Below are positions 11,463 through 21,974 of a stretch of 64,000 nt of DNA, in pieces. Numbering within the stretch: position 1 is the first letter of the stretch; each line of letters opens with the position of its first letter. This DNA is from Aurantiochytrium sp. KH105 (lineage: Eukaryota > Sar > Bigyra > Thraustochytrida > Thraustochytriidae), in contig BGKB01000035.1 of NCBI GenBank assembly GCA_003116975.1, positions 434,001 to 498,000 on the forward strand, in the 5' to 3' direction. The position numbers were made by a program, and so were the translations under genes. A model generated the notes under the pieces. It did not search any database. It was not told the origin of the DNA and worked only from the letters and a program-made list of their open reading frames with translations.

Positions 11463-14400
11463 TTAGTGAGTATCATACGAGAAGCAAACCCCTACGAGTT
11501 CGGTATCAGCGGCAAGCGGCTTGCAAGCCTCAACTTGCGTTGCGGCATAGAACGCCAAGGCTTCTACAGCAATTTGCTCCGCTTGAAAACGCTCCACAAT
11601 GCGAGAACGATATAAGGCACGTTGCTCAAGTGCCATTTGTGCGAGCCGCTTCGTGTGTTCTTCGAGTTTCGCCTCGATTCGATCGAGGTTCTCGAGGAAA
11701 TGTGCCCGCAGCGCGCGCACGGCACGATCGACTGCGTCGGTCTCTGCCTCACGTGGGACAGGAACGGAGTCATCTTCTTCAGCGTCCGGAGAAGAGTTGG
11801 TAGCATCCGCCAAATGAGAAGGTGACACTGCGCGAGCAATGGCAAACGCCTTTTCCACACGAGGCACCTCAGGTGCAGCATTCTTGCCCGCTTTGGCGGG
11901 AGCATCCTCAACGCCGCTAAAGATGGATGAAATGCACCCAAGCTCGGGTCTATCTCCAGGCTCGTTGCCCTGCAGCGCACTGTCCAGACGCACAAGCACC
12001 CAATGCAGCACCTGGAAACGGCTGACTTCGAGCTGAACGAGCTGAAGATACGAATCTTCTGCAAGAGCAGTCAAGGTTGGCACTGCCAGACTTTCCTCGA
12101 GTTCCTGTACGAATGCAGACAGGGTGGCATCTCGTGTGGAGGACTGCGTCCAGAGCTTGGCGACCAGATCTTCAATGCGCGCATGAAGCTCTGCGCGAGT
12201 TCGAGGATCATATCGTGCGTCCTCTGCAATGCAGTTGACGCTCTCCCGAAAGCTCACGACTTCTTGAGCACGCTCTGCGTCGCTTGTGGGATCGATAAGC
12301 TTGGCATCAACCGTTGCCCGCTCTTTCAGGAAATGATCGACCCAGCGTGTACGCAAGCGCCGCATCTCAAGCAAGACATCTTCAACGCCAGAGATGTAAG
12401 CCTTGTCGCAGGTGTCGACCTCAGCAACGATTGCTCTTGCAAGTTCAGGGTCCAGCGTCTCAAGGGAAAGTGGCGGCGCTGAGTTGTCTTCCTCATGGGT
12501 TGCATCTTCCTCTTCTTCCTTGTCAGCTTTCGCAGCGCTCTTCCCCTTGCCTTTAGCAGCCTTCTTTTCTTGCTCCAGGACAGCCGCGCGATGCGCTGCA
12601 ATCTGCTCTTGGGCCACTGCGCGCACGTGGTCGAGCACAGTGGCCAGAGGGTCCGGCATGGCGAACTCTGGATCTGACGAGTTTTCGGGAGTCGCTTCAT
12701 CACCACCCTGCAACTCTTCCTTATTTTCTGTTTCGTCTTCTTTTACTCTTTCTTGTTGTTCTTCTTGCTGCTGCTGCTGCTGCTGCTTTAGGCTTTTCTG
12801 CCATGTATTGAATTTTTCGCATCGTTTCAGTATGTGTCGAACTGTCTTTTCTACGTGGCGTGAACGCCTGTTATTCTCTTCGAGGCGTAGAGTATCCGAA
12901 TCACTTTGACGTTCGTCCGAATTCTGATCCCCGTCCGCAGCTTCAGTGACTTCTTCCTTTGCAATGGGGACATTCTCCTCCTCTTCATCCTCCTCCGTCT
13001 CCTCTTCAGTTTCTTCTTGCTTGTCGACAGCCTCAGTGTCCCGCAACGCAGACGTGACGAGCTTACGAAGTTGTGAGAAGTCGACGTCGATGCCCTCGAC
13101 GTCAAAAAGTTGAGCAAAGCTCAGGACGACGCCTCGTGCTCGACCTTCGATACCTTCGCGGTATTGAGCTGCCATGTCGAGACAGGTGTCAACGTCGGCA
13201 AAGCTGAGTAGCTCGCAATAGGTGACGGGATTGTTCAAGTCCACCGCGGTCTCATCCGCATCTTGGCGGAGAACGCCTGCGGCCTTGAAAGCACGGACAC
13301 TCAGAGGAGGCACGTCAGCAATCGCAAGACTAGGCGAGGGATTGTCGTCATCGACCGCTTCTGCAGTTTCATCATTGCCGATAGCCTGTGGTGGCGTCTT
13401 AGGTCTAGCTCGAGCATCGAGGGCCTCGAGCCAATCGGTGGTAAGGCGGCGACACTTTTCTAAATGTGCTTGCCGCTCGGCGAAAGCCTTCTCGCTGGCC
13501 TCTCGATCAAGCTTTTGCTGTAACTTTCTCTCCACGCTGGTCTCGAGGAGCGCAAAAATGGAATCTGACAAGCATCCAGTCGTCTCGAAACTTTCAAAGA
13601 CTCCGAATGGGGTGTACCATGACGCGACCTCTGGCAAGTTCTCTTCGGTGATATAGACTTGCGGAGCTACGCGAAATCGCTCACTCGCATCAGCAAGAGT
13701 GTTCGCCGCTGCTTTTCGAAAGGTGGCGGCGCGTTCACACTTGAGATGAAGGACAATGTCAAGGCCTCCGGCATCAAGTCCTTGAAATTGACTCGGATCC
13801 ACAGGACGGGGCGCGTCACAGGGCAGCGACAGAGCAGGCTGGGGCTGGTACTCGCACGCCTCAACATCCTTTCCGCTGAGTCGCGCCTCAAGAAGGCGAG
13901 CTTGCGCGCGATTAAATGGAAAGCCATCCATGACCCAGCCTTGGCATGTGTGGACTTGGCCAGATGAGTGGTGCAAGAGGTTGATGACGACTTGCTCGGT
14001 GTGATCTCCAAAGACACACTCAAAGTAGCTTTGGAATTCTTCCCAGGTGATACGACCGTCCATGTTGAAGTCCATTTGCGCAAAAGCCTCAAGAGCTTCG
14101 GCTTCGATGTCACTCTGCGACTTGCCTTCGCAGTGCGCGCGCATGGTGGCCTTTAGGAGCTCTTGCGCATCGAGATCTCCAGAGCCATCGAGATCCCAAA
14201 AGTCAAAGAGCTGGCGCAGGCGATCAAGTGCCGTCACGAATGATACTCGAGGCTGAGATCCGACAGCAGCCCGGGCGTGTGAAGATCGTTGTACCGCAAT
14301 GTCCTGAGCCTCCGCGTCAAGCTCAAGACGCTGAATCGCTTGCACGCACGCTTCTACATAGTCCTCATCCGAGTAGCTTCCGTCTGCAAGCTTGTTCACC

Positions 14401-16154
14401 TTGCCTTTGGAGACAAAGGTTCGCATAAAGGCCTCGGGCTGCAAAATACGTAGACCAAAGCGTGCTGCAATACGAATCGCCATTGCAGTCTTGTGCGCGA
14501 ACGGAGGCCCGAGAAGAGCAAGCTGCAGCCGAAAGCGCCGACTTACTGCAGGAATGGGCGCGGGTGGAGCAGGCTGCGAGGTGATACGAAGAGGCACGAG
14601 AAGATTTCCCACCGCGCATCGATCGGATGTGCGATCCACTCCAGCCCAGAGTCGATTGTCTTCCAGGTAATCGTCTACTTCCGCGTCCAGCCTCGCAGGA
14701 TTTTGGACAAAGTCAACTTTTGTTTCCGTGATTGTCTCAGGCATGCCTGTGGAAGTGCCTTCACGGCGCCTTGCGTCAATTTGAGCCAAGGTAAGGTCGA
14801 CGAGATCGAGGGCAATTCGCTTGCAAGTTCTCTGTGCGTCTGCATGTGCAGCGCCTCTCACGGAATCCCGCAGCGCTGTGATTTGCGTTTCGAACCACAT
14901 TGCGTTTTTCTCGACGCGCAAATCACGATCGGCGAGCACCTCGAGGCGCCTTTGCTCGAATCTTTTGGCTTCCAGACGCTCTTGTTCATCATCCATTTGC
15001 TCTCGGTGCTTTCGATTGGCACGAATGACGCTTTCAAATTTGTCCTGTTCTGCAAGTGCGTCTGTCAGGGCCTGCTCGGCCCTGGATGAGCGTAACAGAG
15101 AAGATTGCAAATGCTCGATGCGCCGTTCGTGGAGAATGTTCTTGGTTTCGAGCCGCATCTGGTCCAAAAAGCGAACGCGACGACCTTCGCGCGCTTCCTG
15201 CTCTTCGCGGGACGATTGCCGACGAAGGCGATGCTCTCCAACGCTTTGGGCATTGTTGGACGTGTCTGGATGGCCAAGGCCACCATTCACAATGGCCATG
15301 TCGCGCCGGTGCGCTTCGACGCGCTGCTCCATCTGGGAAATTTCCTCAATGGTGAGCTGGCGGTCTGCTTCTTTAGCCATGACCTTTGCGTCAAGCTGCT
15401 TTTGAATCTTTCGCGACTCATGACGCGCGCGAACCTCGTCAATATACTTGCGCCTCCGCTGATTTTCGGTCCAAATGCCGATTCCCTTTTCATTCCAGTC
15501 ATTCAGGTATTCAAGTTCTGCCTTTTTATCCATCATTCGACGCCGTCGAATTTCGTTAAAGTACATGGCAAGCGTGTCGCGATCATTTTGCTTGCAAAAC
15601 TCAATGTAGGCGTCTTGCCGAGCACGCTCGTCGTAGAAGGGCTGAAGGTGTTTTTCCATATCGACCTGGTTCTGACTGGTGATCTGCTGTCGCAGCGTCT
15701 TGACGAAGACGTCGCTCTTGGCATTGTCGTAGCTCGGCTTTCTTGTGTGCGCGGGAAGATTGGTGAGCGCAATGAAATTGCCGGGCATGAAGCCTTCGTC
15801 CCGGTGCCGGCCCACCTCCACGGTGATCTGCTTGAGCGCCTTGCGAACTTTGTAAAGCACATCAAAGCAGGTCTTGTCATCGCCGTTGATCATGCGCAGC
15901 GCAACGCGTGCGTCAAAGTTTTTCACATTGAGTCGGGTGAGCGTGCGCTCGATGCGGATGAAGTTTGCAACCTTTTTTTGTACGCGTTGGCTGTCGTGAA
16001 ATTCATCAAAGTCGTCCTGCTGGTTGTGGCGATATAGCAGCTCGCCTAGGAGGTAGCCACTGGAAAAAGCGCTGCCGAGGCTCTCGCTGGCGCCGCCAAC
16101 GCGCTTCGTGAGCTGCACCTCATCATTGAGCCAGTCCTGCAAGAGGCGGCTCAT
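11463..16154 (-). CDS. SPEF2: Sperm flagellar protein 2 / central-pair protein CPC1
   Basis: 1563-aa single-exon axonemal protein, a component of the C1b projection of the central-pair apparatus that regulates flagellar beating. Residues 1-110 form the CH-like SPEF2/CPC1 N-terminal domain. A long charged coiled-coil region (about 150-480) follows, then an adenylate-kinase-like domain. Its P-loop reads GPPFAHKT (549-556), with His where the usual second Gly sits, and the usual DGFPR motif reads DGFPF (743-747). Two canonical EF-hand loops (653-664, and from 695) lie between these motifs, suggesting Ca2+ control. The C-terminal third is acidic and coiled-coil with a short poly-Gln near 1122-1129. 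Length is within the family range (about 1.8 kb-residue animal orthologs are longer). The altered nucleotide-binding residues suggest weak or absent kinase activity, which is an inference. Confidence 0.9.
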   Translation of the reverse strand: MSRLLQDWLNDEVQLTKRVGGASESLGSAFSSGYLLGELLYRHNQQDDFDEFHDSQRVQKKVANFIRIERTLTRLNVKNFDARVALRMINGDDKTCFDVLYKVRKALKQITVEVGRHRDEGFMPGNFIALTNLPAHTRKPSYDNAKSDVFVKTLRQQITSQNQVDMEKHLQPFYDERARQDAYIEFCKQNDRDTLAMYFNEIRRRRMMDKKAELEYLNDWNEKGIGIWTENQRRRKYIDEVRARHESRKIQKQLDAKVMAKEADRQLTIEEISQMEQRVEAHRRDMAIVNGGLGHPDTSNNAQSVGEHRLRRQSSREEQEAREGRRVRFLDQMRLETKNILHERRIEHLQSSLLRSSRAEQALTDALAEQDKFESVIRANRKHREQMDDEQERLEAKRFEQRRLEVLADRDLRVEKNAMWFETQITALRDSVRGAAHADAQRTCKRIALDLVDLTLAQIDARRREGTSTGMPETITETKVDFVQNPARLDAEVDDYLEDNRLWAGVDRTSDRCAVGNLLVPLRITSQPAPPAPIPAVSRRFRLQLALLGPPFAHKTAMAIRIAARFGLRILQPEAFMRTFVSKGKVNKLADGSYSDEDYVEACVQAIQRLELDAEAQDIAVQRSSHARAAVGSQPRVSFVTALDRLRQLFDFWDLDGSGDLDAQELLKATMRAHCEGKSQSDIEAEALEAFAQMDFNMDGRITWEEFQSYFECVFGDHTEQVVINLLHHSSGQVHTCQGWVMDGFPFNRAQARLLEARLSGKDVEACEYQPQPALSLPCDAPRPVDPSQFQGLDAGGLDIVLHLKCERAATFRKAAANTLADASERFRVAPQVYITEENLPEVASWYTPFGVFESFETTGCLSDSIFALLETSVERKLQQKLDREASEKAFAERQAHLEKCRRLTTDWLEALDARARPKTPPQAIGNDETAEAVDDDNPSPSLAIADVPPLSVRAFKAAGVLRQDADETAVDLNNPVTYCELLSFADVDTCLDMAAQYREGIEGRARGVVLSFAQLFDVEGIDVDFSQLRKLVTSALRDTEAVDKQEETEEETEEDEEEENVPIAKEEVTEAADGDQNSDERQSDSDTLRLEENNRRSRHVEKTVRHILKRCEKFNTWQKSLKQQQQQQQEEQQERVKEDETENKEELQGGDEATPENSSDPEFAMPDPLATVLDHVRAVAQEQIAAHRAAVLEQEKKAAKGKGKSAAKADKEEEEDATHEEDNSAPPLSLETLDPELARAIVAEVDTCDKAYISGVEDVLLEMRRLRTRWVDHFLKERATVDAKLIDPTSDAERAQEVVSFRESVNCIAEDARYDPRTRAELHARIEDLVAKLWTQSSTRDATLSAFVQELEESLAVPTLTALAEDSYLQLVQLEVSRFQVLHWVLVRLDSALQGNEPGDRPELGCISSIFSGVEDAPAKAGKNAAPEVPRVEKAFAIARAVSPSHLADATNSSPDAEEDDSVPVPREAETDAVDRAVRALRAHFLENLDRIEAKLEEHTKRLAQMALEQRALYRSRIVERFQAEQIAVEALAFYAATQVEACKPLAADTELVGVCFSYDTH

Positions 16155-17304
16155 GGTGGCGACCGCTCCCCGCGAAGAACCTTCGAGACGACGACGCGAC
16201 TCTGGCAGACGCGACTCTGTCAGACAGCCTTGCGATCGCTTTGCCTCTCAAGAGCGCTCTTGTCCTGACTGATCCGTGCCCATTAATCAATCAAGCGAAG
16301 AATCCAGCAATCGAGCAAGCAATCGAGCATTCAATCGTGCGATCAATCGTGCAATCAAGCAATTGATTAATCGGGCAATCAATCCGTCGGCGCAACCTTG
16401 TTTACTATCGTAAAGCGTGCTAGAAAAGTAAAGTAAATTAGGCAACCAAGCAAGCAAGAAGCGACCGCGAAGGCACGATAAGCGTCGCGTATAGATTGCG
16501 TAATACCAGAATAAAGCCATATAAAATATGATATAATTATAAAAATTACAAAGTCTGGTATTTTGTGTCTCAACGGATAGCTTGCTCTTGTGGCAAAGGT
16601 GAAGATGATAATGTTTTGGAGCGGTTGGGCGGCCGCACAGAAATTGTCAAGAATTGGTCGGCTCGTTGGACGACATGACGTATCAGCTGCAGCAGTGACT
16701 CCGCCAAGACTCGAGCACCCCCCACTCAAAACGAGGTGTCCTTTTGGTCGCTCGAAAAGGAGAAATGCGGTTACTTTTTGGATAACAAACACAGTATAGG
16801 TGGGAAGTGAGCCTGGGATTCCGTTGGCTGCGGCTACTGACTTTGATGGCCGTGGTGACTCCTCAGCAGCGAGTGTGAAGGTCATGGTTTAACCTTTACA
16901 CAGTCAGAGAGCATCCTGAGTTCTTTTCACTCTTGCCAATTGACCAACTGTGAAAACAAGGGGCGCCCAGGGCGAGTCCAACAAGCGTGTTTTGAAACGT
17001 ATGCGGGAGAAATGTGGAGTCTGGAAATCTCGAGCGTAGGGACGCAACCAAATCTGCAACGCGGAGCAAAGGCCATCCTTGGTATTAAAAAGGAAGACTC
17101 TCTCGAGTGAACACGAAAGCAAGAGAGCGAGCGAGAAGGTGACCTGGACCCTAACGAGGAGGATACCAACAAGCACTTTGTAGGTGGGTCTATCACTGCC
17201 ACGACCTCTTTCCTTTCTTCGGGACAGAAACTGCGCTTCCACGGGAAAGAATCGCCGGCGTGATTCGAAGGTGATCAAGTTCCTGAGAATCGCCTCGAAA
17301 CAAA
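16155..17304. promoter_or_regulatory. Divergent intergenic region
   Basis: 1.15 kb between the SPEF2 start (-) and the first 7TM-like gene (+). It contains an imperfect AATC-type repeat at 16282-16390 and AT-rich sequence to about 16560. ORFs in it (for example 168 codons at 16379-16885, minus) lack recognisable domains and are not annotated. Confidence 0.45.
16282..16390. repeat. Imperfect (AATC)n tract
   Basis: Degenerate 4-bp period sequence of AATC, AGCA and ATCG units just upstream of SPEF2. Its divergence suggests an older microsatellite. Confidence 0.75.
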
Positions 17305-18447
17305 ATGAACGCCTGGATGGAACTCTGCGCCGAAAAGGGCCACGGGACGTGGAACTCAACCTCGAATCGCTGCGAATGCGACGAGTGGTGGTCTGGGAAA
17401 ACCGACATGCTTAACTTCGACGGTTATGCATGCCTAACATACGAGCCTGTGAACGTGGCAATTTGGTGTCTCCCGTTGATCGCCATTACAATATTGCAGG
17501 TGCGCATTGTCAAGGCGTTTCGGACGCAGATCCCAGCATTTTGGAAAATGCGAGCTCGACAAGCCAAGCGAGGTATAAAGCTCAGGTGGTGGCAGCACAA
17601 GCCGCTGCGGCTCGTGCTTATCGCTCAGATTTCCCCCATTCTCATCTTCTTTGCGGTACCTTTCAAGGTAGCCTTGCACGAAAACCGGGTGGTGGGTTAT
17701 GACGTGCACATGTCCGTAGCATTTTTTCTTGCCGCTGGAATCCAATTTGTGGGCAATGTTATGGCAGAAGAAGTTGCACTCGGGGCTCTTTTACAGGGAT
17801 TTGCAGGGTCAAACGGAAAGGAGGTGGAGAGGATTCAGCGGCGCATGTTTCGCACTGCATACTTTGCCATTTTTATCTATTGTTGTCTTTCTCTTCCAAC
17901 CTATTTCACGGGCGCTATTGAAGGCAAGCCATACAGGTTTCCATACGATTCGGAGATGCGGTATATGCTCATTATTCGCAACTTTGGCATGGTCTCGTAT
18001 CTTTTGTGGATGGCACTTTTGGCGAAACAAACCACATCGCAGACCGCGCGCTTGCTCGCATTTCATACCTCAACTGCCACAAGCGAGAAGACGCGAGAAG
18101 TTAACGAGATTTTAAATCACCTTCGCGGGTCTGCAAAGGCCAAGATGAAGACTGCGGTGATGGCGGCTCTGATTTATGGCACCTTTTCGATCAAGCCGCT
18201 TTGGCCCTTTCAGGGCATACCGATGGCATTTTTGCTCTTTAAAGTTGCCTCTTCCCGCGCACATTACATTTGCGATTTTATGGGTTCGTCGAGACGAGGG
18301 GCTTATAGTAGTGCAGCGCAGTCGGTGGTTCCTGAAGGCGAACGTGCTTCGCAGACTGCCGTCACAGATGGATCGGTCATTGCTGCCCAGACAGACGGCT
18401 CGGTAACAACTGCTCCAGCACATGGATCCATCGTTGCTGAGCAATGA
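17305..18447 (+). CDS. EGF-like/7TM family protein, copy 1
   Basis: 380-aa membrane protein I do not recognise. The short N-terminus holds a Cys-rich, partly eroded EGF-like tail ending CECDEWWSGKTD, then about seven hydrophobic segments at about 45-65, 98-121, 130-155, 186-206, 217-240, 290-310 and 313-332. The loop between segments 5 and 6 is long and basic; the tail carries TDGS-type Ser/Thr repeats. No signal peptide precedes the Cys-rich tail. Shared with the two neighbouring copies: the (D/E)xWW(S/T)G(K/R)xD signature, GYDVxxSV-like and (N)xxAE segments between the middle helices, and (R/P)YMLIIRN before segment 5. A GPCR-like topology is an inference; a channel or transporter is possible. 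The start is the ATG at 17305. An upstream exon cannot be excluded. Confidence 0.7.
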   Translation: MNAWMELCAEKGHGTWNSTSNRCECDEWWSGKTDMLNFDGYACLTYEPVNVAIWCLPLIAITILQVRIVKAFRTQIPAFWKMRARQAKRGIKLRWWQHKPLRLVLIAQISPILIFFAVPFKVALHENRVVGYDVHMSVAFFLAAGIQFVGNVMAEEVALGALLQGFAGSNGKEVERIQRRMFRTAYFAIFIYCCLSLPTYFTGAIEGKPYRFPYDSEMRYMLIIRNFGMVSYLLWMALLAKQTTSQTARLLAFHTSTATSEKTREVNEILNHLRGSAKAKMKTAVMAALIYGTFSIKPLWPFQGIPMAFLLFKVASSRAHYICDFMGSSRRGAYSSAAQSVVPEGERASQTAVTDGSVIAAQTDGSVTTAPAHGSIVAEQ

Positions 18448-18940
18448 TTAATAACAAGATGCGTCTGTGTGGGCGTGTGTTCATTGTGTGTTTGTCTTTT
18501 CCCCATTCCTCTTCATTTTGGGATGACTCGTTCTCAAAGACTTTTTGCCGATTTGCCCAATGATTTGCCCGTTACATTTTTTTATCCGAGTACCTCAGGC
18601 TTTGAGGTATTAGTATTAGGCCTAATATTAAGTACTTCATAGAACCCGTGTCCTGACAGTGCGTCATTGCACTGGCAACTTCAAAAACGTAAATAGATGA
18701 CGAGCTTGAATCTGTGCGTAAAGAATAAAGGAAAGTCGATTTCTATTTTTTATTTTATAAAATGTCGAGCTATCAAAGCATTGGCGAGTCAAAATGCATC
18801 TGCCTGTGACTGTAACAGTGAATTGACCGCTCATAAAATTGGAAACTTTTTTTCTTTCGCTGTCAAAACAACGCATCCTCGATGGCTCATTGCGACAGCC
18901 GGACGGCAAGTCGTGCAGATCACGAGATCATCTACTGAGA
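18448..18940. other. Intergenic region between 7TM-like copies 1 and 2
   Basis: AT-rich 493-bp gap, well below the GC content of the genes. The frame of copy 2 is open upstream to 18839 but lacks an ATG before 18941. It probably holds a terminator and a promoter; no other element is seen. Confidence 0.4.
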
Positions 18941-20386
18941 ATGTGCGTGGACACTTGCGGCGCGCACGGGGAGTGCAACGCGGATGGGGTCTGCGAGTGT
19001 GACGCGTGGTGGTCGGGGCGTACGGACTTTGTCTTGTACCAGGGTTGGGCATGCAATACGCCCGAGCCATTTATTGTCGCAGTTTGGTCGGCCGTGCTTC
19101 TCGCGTGCGTGTATTTGCAAGTGCAAATCATCCGCGCGGGTTTAGTGCAATTGGCCAAGTTTTCGCAAAGGCGTCGTTTCCAAGCGAAGCGCGGTCAGAC
19201 TCTCAAATTGTATCGTCAACCTTTTGTGCTTCTCGGTATCATCGCCGAGCTCTCGCCGTTGTGCATGGGCATAGTGGCTTGGAAAAAGGTGACCCGAGCT
19301 GAGGATCGCACGATCGGCTACGATGTTCTCGTGTCGGTATTCTTTGCTATTGCCACCGTTTCTGGCTTTATTGGTAATTTTTTAGCCGAAATGGTTACGT
19401 TTGAAGCCCTTGCAAAGGGTATAAAGACCAACTCTGCTCATGAAATGAGCATTGTGCGACGTAAGCTGTCGCACGCTGCGTTTGCCGGCATTTTCGTATA
19501 CATTGCCACGCTAGCTGGCTCCATTGTGCCGGGATGTTTGATTGACGAAGGAGAGATCGGGGATCCTCGCGAGTCCGTGCAGCGTTGGCTCTTGATTGGC
19601 CGAAATATGGGCACAATCGCGTACATGCTGCTCACCATGCGGAGCGCGCAACAAGCTTATGCGCGCGCCCAAGAATTCAATGAGTCTTTGCTGATCACAA
19701 GTGTTCTTGCGCAAAATGAGTCCAATAAGGCTCTGCAAAGATTTGTGGAGAATTTGGAGGCGCTATCGCGAGAGAAAGTAAAGACTGGCAAGACTGCGTT
19801 GGTCGTGTACACTGTGTTTTCGCTACCCTGGATGTGGCCGTACCAGTCCGTCGCAGCAGGCTTAGTGACTGTAAAGGTCTTTACCTCACGATTGCATTTT
19901 GTTCATCAATATCTTGGTGCTGTGAAGGCTGCCAAGACGAAGGCCAAAAATGCAAATGAACCTCACGACCGCGATTTTAATCGTAGTACAGTGTGCTCAC
20001 AAAGCAAAGTGAGTCCATCTGAGGATCAGCTCAATGACTGCGTGCAGCGTGATGAAGGCGAACATCAAGGCCAAGTAGCTCACGAAAGGGAGTCGAAGCT
20101 TTCGAGCCCAGACGTGCTTTCAAGCGGAAAAGTGCTTCCATCGAGTATGTTGAACTCGCAGGGAACGTTGATTCGCGCACTTTTGAACGAAAATTGCGCT
20201 CAAAGCGATGCAGATCTCGTAAAAGATGGTGCAATGGATGTGTCTACGAAGGACTCGAAAGATAAGCTGTCCTCGGCCAGTGCGCGCTGCTCACTGGCAG
20301 GAATCGATTCTGCCGATTCGAACGGTAATGACGTTCAGGGCGAGGCAGACACTACGAAAAGCGTAGAACCAAAGCTGTCTCTCTAA
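18941..20386 (+). CDS. EGF-like/7TM family protein, copy 2
   Basis: 481-aa paralog of the preceding gene. The N-terminal tail has six cysteines in an EGF-like order (C2, C6, C12, C18, C20, C38) with the CDAWWSGRTD signature. About seven membrane segments follow, starting near residue 41. The ending GKTALVVYTVFSLPWMWPYQ before the last segment matches copy 3 closely. The C-terminal tail is long (about 135 residues), hydrophilic and rich in Ser, Asp and Lys, so it is probably cytoplasmic and phosphorylatable. The start ATG at 18941 leaves the first Cys at position 2, so a longer N-terminus or an upstream exon is plausible. Function unknown. Tandem with copy 1 in the same orientation. Confidence 0.7.
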   Translation: MCVDTCGAHGECNADGVCECDAWWSGRTDFVLYQGWACNTPEPFIVAVWSAVLLACVYLQVQIIRAGLVQLAKFSQRRRFQAKRGQTLKLYRQPFVLLGIIAELSPLCMGIVAWKKVTRAEDRTIGYDVLVSVFFAIATVSGFIGNFLAEMVTFEALAKGIKTNSAHEMSIVRRKLSHAAFAGIFVYIATLAGSIVPGCLIDEGEIGDPRESVQRWLLIGRNMGTIAYMLLTMRSAQQAYARAQEFNESLLITSVLAQNESNKALQRFVENLEALSREKVKTGKTALVVYTVFSLPWMWPYQSVAAGLVTVKVFTSRLHFVHQYLGAVKAAKTKAKNANEPHDRDFNRSTVCSQSKVSPSEDQLNDCVQRDEGEHQGQVAHERESKLSSPDVLSSGKVLPSSMLNSQGTLIRALLNENCAQSDADLVKDGAMDVSTKDSKDKLSSASARCSLAGIDSADSNGNDVQGEADTTKSVEPKLSL

Positions 20387-20846
20387 TGTGCTATGTGCGA
20401 GAGCGGCAAGCTGCTAGTGATGCACTCACAATACTGATGCGAGCGTACCAAGTACAACTGACGTAATGAATGGGAAAAGGGGCTGAAAGTCCAAAATTTG
20501 TAGAGCGTCAACGAGACGACATTTGGTAATGTCGAGTGACACTTGCAGCTCTTACTCTTCATACAGATGGCATGACCACATCGAGTTTGCTGTTCAAGGA
20601 AAAGAAAAGACTTTTTTGCAAGTCGTGTACACGCGCATCCAAAAGAGGGTGTCGAAGGTGCGTTCATATGCCTTGCTCTTTTGAAGAAAAGTGGCGATGC
20701 TTGTCAGTAGTTGCGCTCTCTGACAGTGTCACTTCACTTTTGGCTTTCGGTTGAGAGGGAGAGAGGAGATGCATTAAGCGAGAATGTCATCCGATTCGTT
20801 GTTCTGGTGAGAAATGAGCATTATACATGTTATTATTATTCTTTTT
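20387..20846. other. Convergent 3' intergenic region
   Basis: 460 bp between the ends of 7TM-like copies 2 and 3. Short ORFs only; nothing recognisable. Confidence 0.4.
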
Positions 20847-21974
20847 TCAATCTTTAACTGATTCGACGTTTGATGCTGGTGGACGTTGAGACGGGTTTTG
20901 ATGATTCGTTTGCTGATTTGCATGTGTTGTTGCAGCACTTGCAGCCGAAGAAGGGAGCACCGAGTTGACTTTGATTGATGCGTACTTTGATCGTTGAGGT
21001 AAGCTGAGAAAGTTGTGGACAAAGTGGGCCTTGCCTGTGATTTTAATAATAACAATGGCGATGGGATATGTTTGATAGGGCCAAAGCCACGGCAAAGAAA
21101 AGACGACATAGATGAGCGTGGACACCTTGGCAAGTTTGATCTTTTCGTGGCTCATGTCCTCGAGGTGTTTCAGGAAAGCCTCGACCTTGCGCGAGCTTTT
21201 GCTTTGCGTCTGCGCTGTTGCTGACATCGAATTGAGTAAATGCTGTCCCTGTTCTGCTGCTGTCCGCGCAATAAGCCCAAGCGCTTGCATAAAGACGATG
21301 AGACTGCAGTTGCGAATCACTAGCATGTATCGCATGGGCGAGTCTTGTGGAGGGGTGTCCTCTAAGTGGCATCCAAAAAGGACGGTGACAGCTGTAATGC
21401 CCGCATAGAGTGAGACCGCGGACCAGTTTCGAAAGCGAAGGTTGCGGCGCAGCTTGGCGATGTCCTCCGGACGAGTATTTGTCAGATTTTTGAGAAGGGT
21501 ATCAAGTGTGTTCATCTCGGCCAAGAAGTTTGTGATAAATCCATAGGGGACGGCGATCACGAACAGGACACTGACCGACCATGCGCGTCCGAGCTCTCGG
21601 TCCTCCAGCAAAAACGCCTTGGGTGCCGCGATGGCAATAAGTACAGGCGGCGCAAGGATGCCACTGAAGAGGATGCGAAAGGGAACAAACTTCCACGGTG
21701 GTAGCGTACTACCCTTTCTCACTGCGCGCGCTCTAAGCCCAGCGTAGCTCCTCGCCTGCAAGCGGAAGGCGCGAATAATGTTGAAAAATAGGCGTATGGA
21801 GCTGAGTAGCGCCACAGCCCAGATTGCCGCCTCTGCAATTTCAAAGTTTGTGCATCGATATCCATCGTAGCTGAGCATGTCGGCCTTGCCTGTCCACCAC
21901 GTGTCGCAGATGCATGTGCTTTGCTCGCAGATGCCATGGCGGCCGCAATCGGCGCTTGTTTCGCATGCACCCAT
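20847..21974 (-). CDS. EGF-like/7TM family protein, copy 3
   Basis: 375-aa paralog on the opposite strand. The N-terminal Cys pattern is the best preserved of the three: C4, C10, C16, C21, C23, C41, with CDTWWTGKAD. Seven hydrophobic segments begin near residue 47; the family motif SPMRYMLVIRN is at about 220, and a VVFSLPWLWPYQ segment near residue 310. The tail is short and Ser/Asn/Gln-rich. The ATG at 21974 is the only start in this frame nearby. A CAG-preceded upstream extension in frame is possible if a first exon exists. Same unknown role as its neighbours. Confidence 0.7.
   Translation of the reverse strand: MGACETSADCGRHGICEQSTCICDTWWTGKADMLSYDGYRCTNFEIAEAAIWAVALLSSIRLFFNIIRAFRLQARSYAGLRARAVRKGSTLPPWKFVPFRILFSGILAPPVLIAIAAPKAFLLEDRELGRAWSVSVLFVIAVPYGFITNFLAEMNTLDTLLKNLTNTRPEDIAKLRRNLRFRNWSAVSLYAGITAVTVLFGCHLEDTPPQDSPMRYMLVIRNCSLIVFMQALGLIARTAAEQGQHLLNSMSATAQTQSKSSRKVEAFLKHLEDMSHEKIKLAKVSTLIYVVFSLPWLWPYQTYPIAIVIIKITGKAHFVHNFLSLPQRSKYASIKVNSVLPSSAASAATTHANQQTNHQNPSQRPPASNVESVKD

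Follow-up and report, generated by a model that had tools for sequence, protein, structure and literature searches.

In animals, adhesion GPCRs of the EGF-TM7 type consist of an EGF-like extracellular part followed by seven membrane passes, the EGF repeats being carried on a stalk. Among the literature found, the nearest documented design to that described below appears to be the CFEM subclass of the PTH11 receptors of filamentous ascomycetes, which are characterized by an extracellular Cys-rich EGF-like N-terminal domain, seven passes with the N-terminus outside, and a lineage-specific expansion (61 related proteins in a single fungus), with clustering in the genome (PMC1088943). An EGF-like segment also adjoins the bundle of mGlyR, a class C receptor of the Cache-EGF type (PMC12716839), and thraustochytrids are reported to be enriched in G proteins and in three GPCR domains (PMC6050695). 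No description of a family of EGF-like seven-pass proteins in these protists was found in the titles and abstract openings of the literature matches listed.

Three adjacent genes (g1, g2 and g3) encoding proteins with an EGF-like head and seven predicted passes are present in a window of 64,000 nucleotides of Aurantiochytrium sp. KH105, the whole stretch of DNA analysed (positions 434001-498000 of contig C35, in an assembly of 76 Mb and 367 contigs). Each reads as one uninterrupted open frame: g1 (17305..18447, plus strand) encodes 380 aa, g2 (18941..20386, plus strand, with its first in-frame ATG at 18941) encodes 481 aa, and g3 (20847..21974, minus strand) encodes 375 aa. The proteins are 31-34% identical in pairs when aligned across the head and membrane part, and match each other with E values of 3.5e-54 to 9.9e-57 in whole-genome protein searches; by these sequence measures they are true paralogs. 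Of the motifs that the original prediction assigned to them, (D/E)xWW(S/T)G(K/R)xD is present in the Cys-rich part of all three (DEWWSGKTD in g1, DAWWSGRTD in g2, DTWWTGKAD in g3), and SLPWxWPYQ is present, as predicted, in g2 and g3 (SLPWMWPYQ and SLPWLWPYQ; the g1 counterpart is SIKPLWPFQ), but YMLxIRN, expected in all three, is found in g1 and g3 only (YMLIIRN and YMLVIRN), the g2 counterpart being WLLIGRN. No Rfam family above its gathering score and no tRNA was found in the window. A scan with a DNA pattern gave 25 forward and 39 reverse matches versus 20 and 23 for the reversed pattern, and was uninformative.

The same prediction, of a cluster of three, was correct as to the adjacent genes and their positions and too narrow as to the family, which in this genome comprises at least 18 loci whose matches reach the membrane part, plus one partial locus, when g1, g2, g3 and two paralogs are used as queries. 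Loci were counted after the two assembled copies had been paired by position and score, and the number is a lower bound, only the best candidates having been scored in each search. The 16 loci beyond the trio are on C20 (three), C33 (two), C105/C37, C30/C87, C29/C39, C36/C17, C205/C109, C178/C74 (two), C2/C125 and C107/C292 (three, of which the partial locus is matched only over the EGF-like head and TM1); the outer loci on C2 and C107 are tied to the family mainly via C178. Local groups of two or three are formed by the trio itself and on C20 (573k, 576k), C33, C178 and C107, and there are no internal stops in any family match listed. Distant cases (C53/C180, C22/C105:193k and C21/C68), joined to the core mainly by the head or only via C53, were left uncounted, and three matches had been excluded before the count: C13:66885 (E 0.067, in a 75-aa frame), C227:33401 (E 0.17) and C181:68049 (E 0.43). 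Alignment A3 contains 14 of the 19 loci, omitting C178b, C2 and C107a-c. In a tree built from the membrane parts of these 14 members, g1 to g3 are grouped with support of 100/99, the sole inner branch of 11 to pass both thresholds, and a profile of the trio matches a profile of the 11 other members with a probability of 98.7% over 247 columns. By sequence, then, the trio is one branch of a larger family in this genome.

The Cys-rich part had been described as a tail; it is indeed present in all three proteins, as an N-terminal head (g1, 17326..17433, plus strand; g2, 18944..19054, plus strand; g3, 21852..21965, minus strand). Six cysteines are found in the heads of 12 of the 14 aligned members, including g2 and g3, with four in g1 (two of the six are missing) and seven in C33b, where the extra one is within an N-terminal hydrophobic segment; head length ranges from 38 to 88 residues. 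With E values of up to 10 allowed, Pfam EGF_2 was matched in 13 of the 14 (best E 5.1e-07), below its cut-off of 22.1 bits in g2 (E 0.0065, 17.2 bits) and g3 (E 0.0037, 18.0 bits); g3 also matches EGF_Teneurin below cut-off (E 0.00087), and g1 has no Pfam EGF match. Among PDB sequences the best match to the family profile is a reelin EGF domain (E 4.4e-07), and the heads share the core CxGHGxC...CxCDxGWxG with EGF_2-type domains (reelin, teneurin, tenascin). They differ from these in a fixed loop of 17 residues between the last two cysteines, usually about 8 residues in EGF domains: the last three cysteines are spaced CxCx17C in all 14 members, g1 included. Eleven residues past the last cysteine, at the start of TM1, there is a W (12 of 14) or a Y (2 of 14), and 74 successive alignment columns are free of gaps, a run that begins in the head, spans TM1 and reaches into inner loop 1; such a fixed geometry would hold the head as a rigid cap over TM1. 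Taken alone, CxCx17C is not rare, with 28 matches in the 271 open frames of at least 100 aa in the window, of which three are g1 to g3 and most others are in runs of cysteines, and the hallmark of the family is the sequence context around the pattern rather than the pattern itself.

The membrane part follows the head directly in g1 (17434..18306, plus strand) and g2 (19055..19939, plus strand), where its seven passes are predicted from the family average (alignment A3 and hydropathy), and in g3 (20982..21851, minus strand), where seven segments are visible in the sequence by itself. About seven hydrophobic segments had been claimed for each protein: hydropathy averaged over the 14 members has seven peaks, the seventh weak (0.97), but in single sequences, with the Kyte-Doolittle threshold set at 1.3, seven segments are seen in g3, five in g1 and four in g2, so the seven passes of g1 and g2 are deduced from the family average and the alignment. 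Most members have fewer than seven segments singly, and only g3 reaches seven when putative signal peptides are excluded from the count; N-terminal hydrophobic segments resembling signal peptides were seen by eye in C33a, C33b and C29. Lys and Arg average 8.6, 4.0 and 6.8 per sequence in the three inner loops and 1.9, 0.9 and 0.6 in the outer loops, with a higher density inside than outside in every one of the 14 members. From these basic inner loops and the EGF-like head, a topology of seven passes with the N-terminus outside and the C-terminus inside is predicted. Inner loops 1 and 3, both basic, are long (about 36 and 40 residues).

Most family loci are present twice in the assembly, as near-identical copies on separate contigs, and contig C9 carries the second copy of the trio region, with g1, g2 and g3 all present, in the same order and without stops. 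The encoded copies are 98% (g1), 99% (g2, residues 1-335) and 97% (g3) identical. Between C35 and C9 the DNA of g1, g2 (18941-19900) and g3 diverges by 2.28%, 2.71% and 2.13%, respectively, this range applying to coding sequence outside the g2 tail, whereas four neighbouring non-coding stretches differ by 5.25-7.98%. Across 13 family copy pairs dN/dS is 0.04-0.38 (the C20b pair was left out, and the fourteenth pair, C53/C180, is one of the distant cases), with values of 0.18, 0.18 and 0.21 for g1, g2 and g3. As far as sequence comparison can indicate, such values are those expected of functional genes kept by purifying selection. The alternative that the trio consists of chance open frames rather than genes was ruled out by pairwise E values of about 1e-54 to 1e-57, dN/dS of about 0.2, and low coding relative to non-coding divergence.

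The C-terminal tails (g1, 18307..18444, plus strand, and g3, 20850..20981, minus strand, both delimited by alignment A3; g2, 19940..20383, plus strand, long and fast changing) differ among the three proteins, as had been noted. The further suggestion that they therefore have different partners is unsupported: the stretch 19901-20383 of g2, nearly all of it tail, diverges by 6.42% between C35 and C9, about as much as non-coding DNA, so the g2 tail may be under weak constraint. Across the aligned members, Ser and Thr make up 19-32% of the tail in 13 and 8% in one.

The family was compared with known receptor families by profile searches of several libraries. Among Pfam 7TM models, the best match in the 14 members is 7tm_1, in g3 only (E 0.095, 12.6 bits, versus a cut-off of 30.5), and none of 7tm_3, 7tm_2, 7tm_7, GAIN/GPS, CFEM or the fungal 7TM models is among the best 25 of the 29 Pfam families matched, the remainder being weaker single matches. 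Ten NCBIfam families were each weakly matched in one member (best E 0.0099). Against PDB sequences the full-family profile has weak class A matches (5-HT2C, E 0.14; CCR3, E 3.3), and a class A identity was discounted, as profiles of the seven-pass part only, built from 13 and 8 members, have no such matches: they found no GPCR and nothing below E 1, and reaction-centre L chains (E 1.5) are the sole matches of the 13-member profile. For the trio profile A1, the sole matches are 3f9u (E 0.75) and 4z80 (E 2.7). The GPCR motifs DRY and NPxxY were not seen on inspection by eye. Sequence prediction and library searches thus bear out the receptor-like seven-pass layout, the EGF-like head and the lack of a known 7TM signature, and no strong match to a characterised receptor or channel family, which the original prediction gave as grounds for its refutation, was found in Pfam or among PDB sequences. 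The accompanying label of an undescribed system applies to the bundle, which matched no library searched, the Pfam release used included, and not to the combination of an EGF-like head with seven passes, a known architecture.

With EGF-TM7 adhesion GPCRs the family shares an EGF-like part and seven passes, but differs in having one short EGF-like domain set on TM1 and neither GAIN/GPS nor 7tm_2 among its best Pfam families. The GAIN/GPS domain is too large for such heads, which at 38-88 residues leave no room for it. The likeness to the PTH11 CFEM receptors lies in a small Cys-rich head, seven passes, an N-terminus outside, lineage expansion and members close together in the genome (PMC1088943), whereas CFEM has eight cysteines, according to a title in the reference list of that paper, versus six in most heads of the family, and the PTH11 receptors are fungal and the family here belongs to a different lineage. 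The family is thus built, as predicted from sequence, like the fungal CFEM-PTH11 and animal EGF-TM7 receptors, yet is recognised by the domain models of neither.

On balance the family is probably a lineage-expanded, GPCR-like group of cell-surface sensors, with signalling through G proteins; surface location, ligand sensing and G-protein coupling are what we infer for it, and it may sense signals from outside the cell. The EGF-like cap, with its linker of fixed length to TM1, and the short outer loops would receive an extracellular cue (a peptide, a protein or a surface glycan), the binding of which would change the shape of the bundle; the long basic inner loops 1 and 3 and the Ser/Thr-rich tail would then relay the signal into the cell, with a heterotrimeric G protein of this genome as its most likely recipient. 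More tentatively, these proteins could make up a new class of GPCRs confined to labyrinthulid-type protists: the EGF-like cap, firmly joined to TM1 by a linker whose length does not vary, would itself serve as the lid that reads the ligand, the class would have expanded alongside the many G-alpha proteins, and the design of the EGF-TM7 and CFEM-PTH11 receptors would have been invented independently.

The main rival to a GPCR-like sensor is a seven-pass protein of another kind, such as a ligand-gated channel, a transporter or a scaffold, in which the EGF cap would serve contacts outside the cell; it is rather unlikely, and would fit the absence of GPCR family matches in Pfam and PDB sequences and the length of inner loop 1, which is much shorter in classical GPCRs. 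A distant EGF-like seven-pass protein of this genome, L066 (C53/C180), also has a match to the insect chemosensory receptors of 7tm_7 (E 0.0045, 16.8 bits, below the cut-off of 26.6), but meets the core family over the head only in the genome search, and the seven-pass ion channels of the insect gustatory type have the N-terminus inside, opposite to the topology predicted here. Against other channels, transporters and scaffolds nothing strong was found.

Derivation from a class C GPCR, by loss of the ligand-binding module and retention of the membrane-proximal Cys-rich segment and bundle, is improbable. The family resembles mGlyR in having an EGF-like segment beside the bundle (PMC12716839). 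In favour of the derivation, of three class C proteins read from this genome, two have a six-Cys EGF-like segment before the bundle, as seen by eye (L067, where it comes after a Cache-like domain, and L069, but not L071), and the C29 member and a class C match are separated by about 1.4 kb. The 69 matches to 7tm_3 over cut-off in the genome (both copies counted; about 35 if halved) include no family locus, however, and nor do the two Dicty_CAR and four 7tm_2 matches; 7tm_3 is likewise missing from the best Pfam families given above, and L067 has no Pfam EGF match at E up to 0.1. The heads are too short for a Cache or ANF domain, and inner loop 1 is long. Comparison of the family profile with profiles of the class C and cAMP-receptor-like proteins of the genome gave no match, but neither did the positive control, in which class C was compared with cAMP-receptor-like proteins, so this comparison has no weight in either direction. 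An EGF-capped intramembrane enzyme, whether a hydrolase or a protease, is the least probable reading and is disfavoured, for although some seven-pass families are enzymes, the membrane columns with one residue in at least 10 of the 14 members hold L, W, G, P, F, Q, A and Y and no His, Asp, Glu or Ser, one conserved Q column having E in the remaining four members.

If the GPCR-like sensors are indeed coupled to G proteins, this protist lineage would have evolved its own class of EGF-capped receptors, as fungi have PTH11 and animals EGF-TM7. The family, marked by an EGF_2-like head that ends in CxCx17C and is followed by W or Y, also offers a defined, testable set of proteins for studying the sensing of surfaces or cues in such protists. 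It is detected by no Pfam 7TM model, so GPCR counts based on domains would probably miss such proteins. Prokaryote genome contigs scanned with g3 peptide patterns, which are sensitive to close relatives only, gave 10 matching stretches, and IMG/VR scanned with a single A3 pattern gave 21; none of these encodes a relative.

G-alpha proteins are represented in the genome by 27 matches over cut-off with both copies counted, or about 14 if halved. The three GPCR domains enriched in thraustochytrids are presumably those of class C. The G-alpha and class C numbers of this genome agree with the enrichment reported for thraustochytrids (PMC6050695).

Two class C G-protein-coupled receptor (GPCR) proteins of the same genome (L067 on G000:C66, about 190k, and L069 on G000:C42, about 52k) were found by eye to carry a six-cysteine EGF-like segment ahead of the 7tm_3 bundle. 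In L067, a Pfam scan found no EGF match at E values up to 0.1, and an sCache_2 match exceeded the cut-off (E 3.5e-06). A third class C protein, L071, has an ANF_receptor domain and lacks the six-cysteine EGF-like segment. The arrangement in L067 and L069, with the Cache match in L067, is similar to the Cache-EGF module of mGlyR, which an opisthokont survey (PMC12716839) detected in metazoans only.

On contig C29, an EGF-7TM gene (G000:C29:170166) and a partial class C 7tm_3 match (G000:C29:168167-168763) lie on opposite strands, separated by approximately 1.4 kb. Elsewhere in the genome, G-alpha matches are grouped locally in threes on G000:C314/C245 and C38/C160, with one TGA inside one of the C314 matches and likewise in its C245 counterpart.

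Four of the 14 aligned EGF-7TM paralogs (L016, L019, L022 and L026) end in an acidic stretch followed by YV (as a group, EEDDDYV, DDDDGYV, DDDDDYV and ENSDYV), and two others end in DSI or DWI; the acidic-YV end is absent from the three window genes, g1, g2 and g3. These paralog ends are possibly PDZ ligands or ER-export ends. Compared with L036, the C20 copy of the C20:576k family gene, the C254 copy (L054) contains a 16-residue in-frame tandem duplication, SKTGFYTAAYLFQPQL, in the TM3 region, which is a length difference between the copies or an assembly error.

Neighbouring the trio, a gene on the minus strand (window 11463-16247), with CH_2, SPEF2_D5 and EF-hand matches over the cut-off, encodes a predicted product that resembles the flagellar protein SPEF2/CPC1. 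Back-to-back palindromes occupy positions 18584-18641 of the window, between g1 and g2; their core, TATTAGGCCTAATA, is unchanged in the second assembled copy of the region on C9, whereas the flanks differ between the C35 and C9 copies.
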